From a virus: a stretch of 20,821 nt of DNA. A program made the translations under genes and the position numbers. Under the pieces are notes generated by a model. The model searched no databases. It saw only the letters and a list, made by a program, of their open reading frames with translations, and had not been told where the DNA came from. This document shows, in pieces, positions 1-11,436 of the stretch. The stretch's first letter is position 1. Each line of letters opens with the position of its first letter. The stretch lies in IMG/VR virus record IMGVR_UViG_3300030107_001814, positions 1-20,821 of that record; one strand, written 5' to 3'.

Positions 1-1118
1 ATGAAATTACATGTAGTAGAAAGACCTGCTTCTCTAGCAATAGCAAATGCTTCTATCGCTCTCTCGTTTTGATATACTCTACCTATAACATCCTTACGGA
101 ACTGGGGATCACCATGTTCTACACCCATATTAATCTTCAAACATCCAAGTTCTTTCAATGTCCTTGCTTGATATGGTGTCAATAACTCTGGTCTTGTCTG
201 AGTAAAGAAAGGTAATTTGTATTTGGAATACATCTCAGCCCACTCATCAAAACCTCGTTTTGACATTGTAAGGAATGTATCTGTCAAGATCCACAACACC
301 TCTATGTTATGACGATCTATTAGATATTTCAACTCTGCTTCTTGATGCTCAACAGTTTTCTTTCTGAAGAACAAACTATCTGTTTCCTCCTTATATAATC
401 CTGCATTAGATGGTGAGTTACAGAACTTACATTTGAATGGACATCCACGTTGTGTTTCTGTCACACCAATCTTTACTATCTTACCTTGGAATGGTCTGTA
501 TAATGATTTTGCTGGAAATATATCATGGTCTGTGATTGGTAGTGTGTTGACATTGACAGCAGGTCTCATCGGATTAGGATGAATGTTAGGTAAATGATGA
601 CCTGTCTTACCCTCACTAATAAGATCCATCAGTTCAGGTATTGCTTCATCTCCCTCACCTCTACAAATATAATCACACTTACCTTCAAATGCTTGTGGAT
701 AATAGGTACAGAACACACCACCACAAACACTAATAAACTTTAGATCTGTGATCTGATCCATGAATTTTCTCCACAGATAATAAGTGTCCTCTACAACAGA
801 AGATAATATTACATCAGGTTTGAATTCTAATACCTTCTTTCTCCATGCAACATACATATTCTCATCTTCTAAAGTCAGATCAACTCCTTCTTTCTCCCAC
901 TTATACTCTGGGAACATCTGTCTCTTTTCTCTTTCTCTATCTCTATCAGGACGTGCAAATTCTTCCTCAGTATCTACAGGATACCAAGTAGCATCAAACA
1001 AATCTATATTATTATACCCTGCTCTTTTCAAACATGCAGTTAAAATAGCAATGCCACCTGGAGGGGTGACACGCATATGTTGATTAGGATACAACCATAA
1101 TATCCTAAGTTGTTTCAT
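1..1118 (-). CDS. B12-binding domain radical SAM protein, 3' end outside the window
   Basis: The reading frame opens with ATG at 1118 and is still open at position 1, giving 372 visible residues. The N-terminal half resembles a cobalamin-binding domain: PPGGIAILTACLKRAGY near residues 19-35, GGVFCTYYP near 133-141, and CDYICRGEGDEAIPEL near 148-163. The classical DxHxxG cobalamin ligand motif is not seen, as in many B12-radical SAM proteins. The radical SAM core starts at Cys226-Cys230-Cys233 (CPFKCKFC, the CxxxCxxC iron-sulfur ligand pattern), and a GVEHGD strand lies near 332-337. Such enzymes cleave S-adenosylmethionine to do methylations, cyclisations or thioether chemistry; the substrate cannot be told from sequence. 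The start overlaps the 3' end of the preceding small gene by 14 nt, so it is the last visible cistron of that unit. Family is fairly secure, role unknown. Confidence 0.85.
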   Translation of the reverse strand, partial: MKQLRILWLYPNQHMRVTPPGGIAILTACLKRAGYNNIDLFDATWYPVDTEEEFARPDRDREREKRQMFPEYKWEKEGVDLTLEDENMYVAWRKKVLEFKPDVILSSVVEDTYYLWRKFMDQITDLKFISVCGGVFCTYYPQAFEGKCDYICRGEGDEAIPELMDLISEGKTGHHLPNIHPNPMRPAVNVNTLPITDHDIFPAKSLYRPFQGKIVKIGVTETQRGCPFKCKFCNSPSNAGLYKEETDSLFFRKKTVEHQEAELKYLIDRHNIEVLWILTDTFLTMSKRGFDEWAEMYSKYKLPFFTQTRPELLTPYQARTLKELGCLKINMGVEHGDPQFRKDVIGRVYQNERAIEAFAIAREAGLSTTCNF

Positions 1119-4910: not shown

Positions 4911-5146
4911 TAAGAGTCTCCATAGGTATCTTGTTTCTTGAAGAACTCACCTAGACTTGATTGAACATTAGGTGGTTCAGGATCCTTGTATCCTTTCATC
5001 TTCTTCCACTTGTTATACAATGCACCTAGTATCCATGACTGAGATAGACTTTTAGGACCATTCTCTAGCAACTCAAGTTCCTTCTTAGAACTTGTATATG
5101 CTTTATACTCTTGTCTCCAGTTAGAGTCATCGTAAGTACTATTCAT
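4910..5146 (-). CDS. Small conserved hypothetical protein, 78 aa
   Basis: A soluble protein with a helical segment containing LSQSWILGALYNKWKKMKGY (about residues 34-53) followed by a proline turn and LGEFFKKQDTYGD at the end. No catalytic motif or membrane segment is visible. Its start ATGAATAG overlaps the last eight bases of the methylase gene, so translation is probably coupled. Function unknown. Confidence 0.72.
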   Translation of the reverse strand: MNSTYDDSNWRQEYKAYTSSKKELELLENGPKSLSQSWILGALYNKWKKMKGYKDPEPPNVQSSLGEFFKKQDTYGDS

Positions 5147-5975
5147 AGTTGAGTAGAACTAACTCCTTTCTATCTTTTTGTGCCTTAGTATATGTAGTTG
5201 TAGATCTCATCGTGTATGTATGTTCATACTCAACAGCCTTCCAATCACTGAATCTATCTCTAACTAATTGTGAAGAATTATAGCTCACAAGAAGATCTTG
5301 AAGACACTTATCACATTTTGTAGAGAAGTCATCATGATCAAAATACTTATGCATATCACCCTTCTTACCATATAAATGAGATCCTATTTCATATGGTGGA
5401 TCAAGGTATATAAATGCATCCTTTACTTTAGTCTGAACTCCACTCAGTAAGAAATCATAAGAGTAATTAGTAATCTTCCAGAACTTTATTATTTCTTGAT
5501 ATCCACTAAGCTTTTCAATTCCCCTGACGGAGAAATTGGATTCTGAAGCTTGGGCAGAAAAAGAACTCGATTCAGTAAGACCAGAAAAACTACACTTGTT
5601 AACGACATAAAAACTAACTGCACGGTGTGTATTGGATAGCGATCTATCACCAACTTCTTTCTTACAGATTTCAAAAAGTTTTTTTGCTTTGTCTCTGTCA
5701 TTGTGCTCGGATTTTAGTTCTAATAGTTTTGTTTCTAACTCCTTACCATTACACTGTAACTGACTCCAGAAGTTATACAAAGGTTCATATAGATCATTTA
5801 CCCACACAAGTAGATCAGGGTACTGTTTAGTTACCCACAAAGCAACAGAACCACCACCTAAGAAAGGTTCTCTAAACTGGTAGTACTTCGTCAGGTCTGG
5901 AAAGAACTGACTCATCTTGGTTATTGCTCTGCTCTTGCCACCTGGATAACGTAGCGGAGTTTTCAAGTTCTTCAT
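5139..5975 (-). CDS. dam: DNA adenine methyltransferase, D12 (Dam) class
   Basis: The 278-residue protein has the class-alpha N6-adenine methylase order: the target/AdoMet-binding LRYPGGKSR at 8-16, EPFLGGGSV (motif I) at 36-44, VNDLYEPL at 59-66, and the catalytic YLDPPYE with DPPY at 192-195. This class, which includes Dam and T4 Dam, methylates adenine in a short palindrome, usually GATC; the actual target is not determinable here. The ATG at 5975 has GAGG ten bases upstream and puts PGGK at the usual position. The first 104 nt are also read, in another frame, as the end of the epimerase gene. Phage methylases can shield DNA from restriction or mark it for packaging or expression control. 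Confidence 0.93.
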   Translation of the reverse strand: MKNLKTPLRYPGGKSRAITKMSQFFPDLTKYYQFREPFLGGGSVALWVTKQYPDLLVWVNDLYEPLYNFWSQLQCNGKELETKLLELKSEHNDRDKAKKLFEICKKEVGDRSLSNTHRAVSFYVVNKCSFSGLTESSSFSAQASESNFSVRGIEKLSGYQEIIKFWKITNYSYDFLLSGVQTKVKDAFIYLDPPYEIGSHLYGKKGDMHKYFDHDDFSTKCDKCLQDLLVSYNSSQLVRDRFSDWKAVEYEHTYTMRSTTTYTKAQKDRKELVLLNYE

Positions 5976-6852
5976 TAATGTAGTCCTCTAAGGTATGATT
6001 GGGTTTCCAATCTAGTAGGAGTCTTGCCCTCTCATTATCGGCAAGAGTTTCTCTGGCTTCGCCAGGTCTTTCTGGAAGGTATACTGTATTATCAGATATC
6101 ATAGCAGCAAGATCATTCACAGAATGATTAGTACCAGTACCAATGTTTATACTAAGACCAGAATAGTTTGTCATCATGGCATTTATATTTGCCTGTACGA
6201 CATCATCAACATGAGTAAAGTCTCTACGTTGTTCACCATCTCCTACAATAGTCAATGGTTCTCCACGTTTCTTTTGCTCTAGAAATAATCCAACAACAGG
6301 TGCATACTGTCCTTTCAATGGTTGACGAGGACCATATACATTGAAGTATCTAAGACTGATAGTCCTAAGACCATACAGATTGTGATACATCTCACACATT
6401 ATCTCAGCAGATTTCTTACTAGCAGAATAATGATTAAGACACTGTGGTTGCATAGACTCCTTCAAAGGAGGTTCATTCACTAATCCATATAGGGATGAAG
6501 TAGAAGAGTTGATAAATCTTCTAGCACCTACTTGCCTAGCACACTCCAACATATTGACAGTACCCTGAATGTTTGTCTCCAAGCACTCCTTAGGATTCTG
6601 CATAGCAACTTGTATTCTACTATGTGCTGCTAGGTGAAAGACATATTCTACACCATCAAAGACTGGTCTGCAAGCATCGAAGTCACGTATATCAACTACA
6701 TGATTCTCAGCATGATCTTCATACCAATTGAAAGCATCATTAGATTCAGCAGATTCATTATCAATGACAACTACTTCATGTCCATTCTGTAGTAATCTAC
6801 CAACGATATGGGAGCCAATGAATCCTGCTCCACCTGTTACTAAACATTTCAT
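5872..6852 (-). CDS. NAD-dependent nucleotide-sugar epimerase/dehydratase (extended SDR)
   Basis: A 326-aa short-chain dehydrogenase of the extended type: NAD-binding GGAGFIG at 7-13, acidic VVIDN at 28-32, FHLAAHSRI near 72-80, catalytic Ser in SSTSSLYG near 116-123, Tyr142 and Lys146 in YSASK, then LRYFNVYGPRQP and RRDFTHVDDVV, the usual sugar-binding blocks. Such enzymes epimerise or dehydrate UDP- or GDP-sugars; the specific sugar cannot be assigned, though it is close to the UDP-glucose 4-epimerase type. It could modify phage glycans or host surface sugars. The last 34 residues, Gln/Asn/Ser rich, overlap dam and look like an added tail. ATG overlaps the gp44 stop (ATGA). Confidence 0.9.
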   Translation of the reverse strand: MKCLVTGGAGFIGSHIVGRLLQNGHEVVVIDNESAESNDAFNWYEDHAENHVVDIRDFDACRPVFDGVEYVFHLAAHSRIQVAMQNPKECLETNIQGTVNMLECARQVGARRFINSSTSSLYGLVNEPPLKESMQPQCLNHYSASKKSAEIMCEMYHNLYGLRTISLRYFNVYGPRQPLKGQYAPVVGLFLEQKKRGEPLTIVGDGEQRRDFTHVDDVVQANINAMMTNYSGLSINIGTGTNHSVNDLAAMISDNTVYLPERPGEARETLADNERARLLLDWKPNHTLEDYINEELENSATLSRWQEQSNNQDESVLSRPDEVLPV

Positions 6853-10384: not shown

Positions 10385-10597
10385 TCAAAAGATACCAGGC
10401 ATAACTGCTCCAAATAGGATGTAGTTATGTACTGCTGCAAAGAATCCAATCATCGCTAGGCGACCATTGAGTTGCTCTGCATTCTTCCAGTAATCATGAT
10501 CGGTATCAACCTGAATCTGAGGTTCATGAGCAAACATGTTCTGCTTACCATACTCAGTAGTTGTGTACCTCTTCATGGTATTGGTAGAAGAAGTCAT
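10385..10597 (-). CDS. hli: High-light-inducible protein, 70 aa
   Basis: The C-terminal half contains the complete HLIP signature AEQLNGRLAMIGFFAAVHNYIL (about residues 40-61) and the family tail GAVMPGIF. The first 35 residues are a polar extension with a HEPQIQVDTDHDYW stretch. HLIPs bind chlorophyll and protect host photosystems during infection. ATG at 10597 is used here; Met8 is an alternative, and neither has a ribosome site. A sigma70-type promoter candidate lies 28 bases upstream, so it could be expressed early. Confidence 0.93.
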   Translation of the reverse strand: MTSSTNTMKRYTTTEYGKQNMFAHEPQIQVDTDHDYWKNAEQLNGRLAMIGFFAAVHNYILFGAVMPGIF

Positions 10598-11052: not shown

Positions 11053-11436
11053 TTAGAAGGTGTACTTAACTCCAGCTTTAGCACCCCAGTTAACTACTTC
11101 TTCGTTAGAAGCTTCAGCAGTGATTCCAGAAAGCTCACCATAGATACCGAATTGCTCAGTAGCAGCAACGTTGATACCAGCCTTACCAGAGAACTCAGTC
11201 TCAGAACCGTCAGTTCCGTCTACAGCAACGAATGAAGGACCACCTTGTACGTATCCAGAAACTTTCTCTGAAAGTTGACCTTCAATACCTACGTGTAGGT
11301 CTGTAGTAGCACCTGAATAGTCTCCATCAGGATAAGAAAGATTGCTTTCTACATTCACATATGGACCAGCAAAAGCTGCACCAGCGAAGAGGAATGGAGA
11401 TGCTGCTAAAGCAGCGATTGTTGATTTGATTGACAT
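11053..11436 (-). CDS. Secreted beta-barrel-like (outer membrane type) protein, 127 aa
   Basis: The N terminus is a typical Sec signal peptide: KS, a hydrophobic stretch TIAALAASPFLFAGAAFA, and a likely cleavage before GPYVNV (after about residue 23). The mature part is a chain of alternating amphipathic strands (DLHVGIEGQL, VSGYVQGGPSFVAV, FSGKAGINVAA, FGIYGELSGI) ending in GAKAGVKYTF, the terminal Phe being typical of outer-membrane barrels inserted by BamA. About 104 mature residues would allow only a small barrel. Its own strong promoter, structured leader and terminator make it a single-gene unit. Similar proteins occur in other cyanophages, but the role is unknown; altering the host envelope or a virion location are both possible. 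Confidence 0.75.
   Translation of the reverse strand: MSIKSTIAALAASPFLFAGAAFAGPYVNVESNLSYPDGDYSGATTDLHVGIEGQLSEKVSGYVQGGPSFVAVDGTDGSETEFSGKAGINVAATEQFGIYGELSGITAEASNEEVVNWGAKAGVKYTF

Follow-up and report, generated by a model that had tools for sequence, protein, structure and literature searches.

AprD4 is a member of the B12-type radical SAM fold that does not use cobalamin, and MgmA, with a similar fold, is the methyl-coenzyme M reductase glutamine C-methyltransferase. Among viruses, bchE has been reported among the AMGs of surface viruses (PMC10653327), and radical SAM cassettes have been reported in pelagimyophages (PMC7029224). Marine phages with a class II RTPR are B12-dependent (PMC10547690); in these a phage enzyme needs host B12, as is likely for the locus described here, but the enzyme is a ribonucleotide reductase and its role is another one. 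A structural search of viral models showed that other uncultured phages also encode B12-type radical SAM proteins, so this kind of protein is not new to viruses. The window analyzed here is an IMG/VR virus record of 20,821 bases, which carries at one edge the 5' 372 codons of a B12-binding-type radical SAM gene.

The radical SAM ORF lies on the minus strand (positions 3-1118). It starts with an ATG at 1118 and stays open through 372 codons up to the contig edge, with its 3' end past that edge. Pfam places a PF04055 radical SAM core at residues 221-369 (positions 12-458, minus strand; 66.6 bits vs. a cutoff of 29.5, 4e-18) and, N-terminal to it, a PF02310 B12-binding match at residues 94-163 (630-839, minus strand; 35.5 bits vs. 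a cutoff of 32.1, 1e-8). The PF02310 match falls within an N-terminal part that shows a Rossmann-like strand/helix order in the AF2 model; in the phage proteins the PF02310 cutoff is exceeded by a narrow margin. The initial annotation had described a B12-binding radical SAM enzyme with a CxxxCxxC cluster at residues 226-233, and it was right on both counts: the two Pfam domains score over their cutoffs, and the [4Fe-4S]/SAM motif CPFKCKFC (C226-PFK-C230-KF-C233; 420-443, minus strand) was located at exactly these residues, the motif being invariant across 25 aligned full-length relatives. A missing PF02310 match or a broken gene would have spoken against that description, and neither was found. 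In L002, a relative with 97% identity, the gene is complete (485 aa), and its 3' end overlaps gp43 by four bases (ATGA). Complete relatives are 450-493 aa long, and the frame is complete in nearly all untruncated contigs. Because the relatives are complete, the gene in the window is truncated by the contig end only.

The AF2 model of the protein (alignment A1; pLDDT 82.8, pTM 0.84) matches solved class B enzymes. The best PDB folds by Foldseek were MgmA, AprD4, TsrM, OxsB, and CysS, all of them B12-type radical SAM folds. MgmA (9ccb) was the top match (E 9e-18), and its profile alignment extends over the B12 and radical SAM domains (residues 96-410), but the identity is 18% and the score with TIGR04014 is 48 bits vs. 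a cutoff of 360. AprD4 (6fd2), the second-best fold, shares the two-domain fold with TM-scores of 0.65/0.69, the highest among the top structural matches; it was also the sole PDB chain found by single-sequence search and the best in the profile search. However, the AprD4 profile match is limited to the radical SAM part (215-420), and the NF033070 score is 52 bits vs. a cutoff of 500. The comparison with BchE made in the initial annotation held at the level of the superfamily, where likeness covers both domains, but not for BchE itself (TIGR02026, 79 bits vs. a cutoff of 481). The hopanoid enzymes HpnJ and HpnR scored 76 and 45 bits vs. cutoffs of 577.6 and 650, respectively. With every equivalog far below its cutoff, no NCBIfam family claims the protein, and the subfamily is therefore unnamed in NCBIfam; no PHROG family matched it either. 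The PF04055 core with CxxxCxxC, the PF02310 domain N-terminal to it, and the fold are features of class B, and we assign the protein to the cobalamin-type (class B) radical SAM enzymes with high confidence.

By our own count, three scans of IMG/VR gave about 80 contigs of this family; the first yielded 69 loci, including the remote L070 (30%), and the two further scans added contigs. Matches to psbA were present in three larger family contigs (full-length in two of the three) and the relatives of the window's gp23 are from T4-like cyanophages, which places the lineage among cyanophages, as had been proposed. A 70-aa ORF of the window (10385-10597) looks like a high-light-inducible protein by eye and fits a cyanophage. 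The window protein found no match among 50,697 phage records, a collection that may omit records near the window, and a search of phage records with the closest SAR11 homolog also gave none; the first result and the absence of the gene at the same junction in relatives agree with the earlier statement that it is not a T4 core gene. No description of the family was found in the open-licence literature, which is weak evidence of absence. CobS, taken as a B12 marker, gave a weak match in 1 of 11 records of carrier phages only, and no B12 riboswitch was found at the phage loci. The carrier phages have further radical SAM genes: two that match PHROG radical SAM families are present in another contig (L119:94-2090), and the phage contig G004 has three PF04055 matches at 51.7-60.6 kb besides the cassette gene.

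The genes of the window's minus strand run from hsp20 of the T4-like replication operon (2578-2138; Pfam, PHROG) to an NTase-like gene (phrog_36119; 2111-1380), DUF6561 (PF20198; 1383-1105), and the radical SAM gene, whose start overlaps DUF6561 by 14 bases. The order hsp20, NTase, DUF6561, radical SAM, gp43 is kept wherever these neighbors are on the contig. The 92-aa DUF6561 protein had been called Sm-like, in line with its Foldseek match to the Sm/Lsm-like 3by7 (E 6e-4, TM about 0.7-0.8). At least 20 related contigs without a radical SAM gene have the NTase-like gene and DUF6561 next to gp43. Because both occur without the cassette, they do not define the substrate of the enzyme, and we rejected a functional coupling to them. 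We likewise rejected a connection with the cytidylyltransferase-like gene that follows gp43, since many cassette-minus relatives and cultured cyanophages have it too.

In carriers the radical SAM gene begins within or directly at DUF6561, and its 3' end either overlaps gp43 or is close to it; the enzyme is thus probably made together with the DNA polymerase. In L071, L139, L147, and other relatives that lack the cassette, DUF6561 runs straight into gp43. On the gp43 tree there were at least 10 presence/absence changes of the radical SAM gene, 8 of them forced by well-supported branches. In three contigs (L049, L165, and L124) gp43 identity is 99.3-99.6% for the protein and 97-98% for the DNA, and the DNA of the flanking NTase and DUF6561 genes is 94-97% and 88-91% identical, respectively; the radical SAM genes between these flanks and gp43 show 56-65% protein and 64-70% nucleotide identity. 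A fourth contig (L169), with a gp43 98.9% identical to that of L049, has no radical SAM gene. These sequence comparisons show the gene to be an exchangeable cassette between DUF6561 and gp43, and recombination between the conserved flanks would be the simplest reading of the allele swap. Of 12 pairs, 11 gave a dN/dS of 0.04-0.16 for the radical SAM gene; the pair that had diverged most (dS 1.6) gave 0.23. The gene, with its intact B12-binding/radical SAM architecture, is under purifying selection. In three contigs (L021:2046-2654, L025, and L026) a gene of ∼200 aa (202 aa in L021) separates DUF6561 from the radical SAM gene; it has 2OG-oxygenase-like HxD...H residues by eye, and the L021 copy found no match in Pfam or PHROG. 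L120 and L121 show a gap of ∼600 bases here.

The best cellular match in the genome scan was SAR11, with homologs in 30 of 297 Pelagibacteraceae genomes (about 10%; E below 1e-40). The SAR11 proteins have the same full-length architecture at 32-46% identity, at which the phage enzyme may differ in substrate or cofactor use. Their setting is different: most SAR11 copies are surrounded by glycan genes, frequently with a riboswitch-associated btuB-like/DUF6580 unit next to them, whereas the phage copies form the cassette before gp43. Other SAR11 neighbors encode NeuB, a cytidylyltransferase, an NAD epimerase, and SIS proteins, pointing to surface glycans. In the tree, some of whose branches were flagged as long, all phage proteins formed one clade (support 100) and the nearest row was the SAR11 genome G130 (support 99); the sampling is dense for SAR11 only, so that SAR11 is at most a possible origin. 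The G130 copy lies among housekeeping genes, an exception to the glycan setting. Besides the SAR11 genome itself, 11 of 378 Pseudomonadota genomes scanned had weaker relatives. A scan of genome contigs with two short peptide patterns gave none from cyanobacteria, weak evidence that cyanobacteria lack the gene.

In 9 of 21 SAR11 loci there is a TonB receptor that scores best with the B12-receptor family (TIGR01779; 188 bits vs. 98 for the next non-B12-receptor family, with a cutoff of 600), and 9 of 21 carry the membrane protein DUF6580. The receptor of L074 matched solved BtuB at 5e-25; for that of L224, BtuB was a slightly poorer match than the colicin I receptor. BtuB-like receptors were found in 25 of 30 SAR11 genomes with a radical SAM homolog vs. 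35 of 267 without (Fisher 2.5e-15), and DUF6580 in 26 of 30 vs. 32 of 267 (2.4e-17), both tests ignoring relatedness; five genomes with the homolog had no BtuB match. Of 9 SAR11 loci scanned, 7 have an AdoCbl-II riboswitch where the btuB-like gene begins (73-101 bits vs. a gathering score of 36.5). At L207, L216, L217, L219, L220, L221, and L224 the riboswitch, the BtuB-like receptor, and DUF6580 are all beside the radical SAM gene. We regard such loci as a candidate unit for B12 uptake and use. In six SAR11 genomes (G011, G159, G187, G188, G190, and G294), which may be incomplete, the PF02310 search matched no protein other than the radical SAM enzyme, and all six have the BtuB-like and DUF6580 genes. 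If the enzyme is indeed cobalamin-dependent, some SAR11 cells may retain B12 uptake on its account.

Cobalamin dependence of the phage enzyme is predicted from sequence and we consider it likely; it is supported indirectly, because the SAR11 relatives adjoin the riboswitch-associated btuB-like/DUF6580 unit. The earlier suggestion that the phage uses host (pseudo)cobalamin is strengthened by the same indirect evidence. The best overall explanation, which we favor by a modest margin of confidence, is a cobalamin-type radical SAM enzyme of uncultured T4-like cyanophages that probably methylates a glycan precursor or another small-molecule precursor. Host (pseudo)cobalamin would carry the methyl group, cleavage of SAM at the [4Fe-4S] cluster would give a substrate radical, and an unactivated carbon of a small molecule would be methylated or otherwise remodeled. 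Methyl transfer itself is somewhat better than an even proposition. The target would most likely be a sugar or other surface-glycan precursor; this assignment is the weakest step and remains tentative.

The enzyme might instead have the B12-type fold and, as AprD4, make no use of cobalamin, with diol dehydratase or epimerase chemistry on a sugar or aminoglycoside-like substrate. AprD4 leads the sequence and profile searches of PDB as well as the TM-scores of the top structural matches, and PF02310 is barely over its cutoff; but the profile match covers the radical SAM part only, where MgmA aligns over both domains, the AprD4 family score is far from its cutoff, and the SAR11 relatives are accompanied by B12 uptake genes and a B12 riboswitch. 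We consider this reading unlikely. Somewhat less probable still is a modifier of nucleic acids or nucleotides made with the replication proteins, for example one that C-methylates phage DNA bases against host nucleases. The site directly before gp43, with overlapping or abutting frames, would suit it, and an arms race would fit the high turnover of alleles. The initial annotation had seen a hint of a nucleic-acid target in the coupling to the NTase and Sm-like genes, a hint that lost its force with the persistence of both flanking genes beside gp43 where the radical SAM gene is missing and with the surface-glycan neighborhoods of the SAR11 relatives. The 2OG-oxygenase-like gene at the same site in some relatives also argues against such a modifier, and we know of no B12 radical SAM DNA methylase.

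Among NCBIfam models, BchE ranks first or second for the phage protein, and bchE AMGs in the surface viral survey (PMC10653327) would be in keeping with a pigment enzyme, a Mg-protoporphyrin monomethyl ester cyclase that boosts chlorophyll synthesis. Several unrelated B12 radical SAM families score alike, however, the BchE score is far below its cutoff, and the SAR11 relatives are placed with glycan genes. SAR11, to our knowledge, makes no chlorophyll. A BchE-like role is accordingly very improbable, and what surface viral surveys have reported as bchE may in part belong to the radical SAM family of the window. The frequent lack of the gene in close relatives could be explained by a passenger without a fitness role or by a decaying gene; the complete frames in nearly all untruncated contigs, the invariant catalytic motif, and the low dN/dS in most pairs make this, if anything, the least credible account.

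Should the preferred reading of a cobalamin-dependent enzyme be true, cyanophages would rely on host corrinoid cofactors for infection via an enzyme unnamed in the family databases searched, and the gene swapping before the DNA polymerase would make this a variable site within an otherwise conserved replication operon. More speculatively, the DUF6561-gp43 junction of marine T4-like cyanophages could be a hot-swap site: under host-surface or defence selection, phages would exchange divergent alleles of a B12-dependent modifying enzyme there, and at times a 2OG-oxygenase-like gene, with host (pseudo)cobalamin as an infection determinant; we hold this to be doubtful. Elsewhere in the window, a D12-class DNA adenine methyltransferase ORF (5139-5975) overlaps a nucleotide-sugar epimerase ORF (5872-6852) by ∼100 bases. 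A 127-aa ORF (11053-11436) has a signal-peptide-like start and an alternating pattern, and by eye possibly encodes a small outer-membrane barrel.
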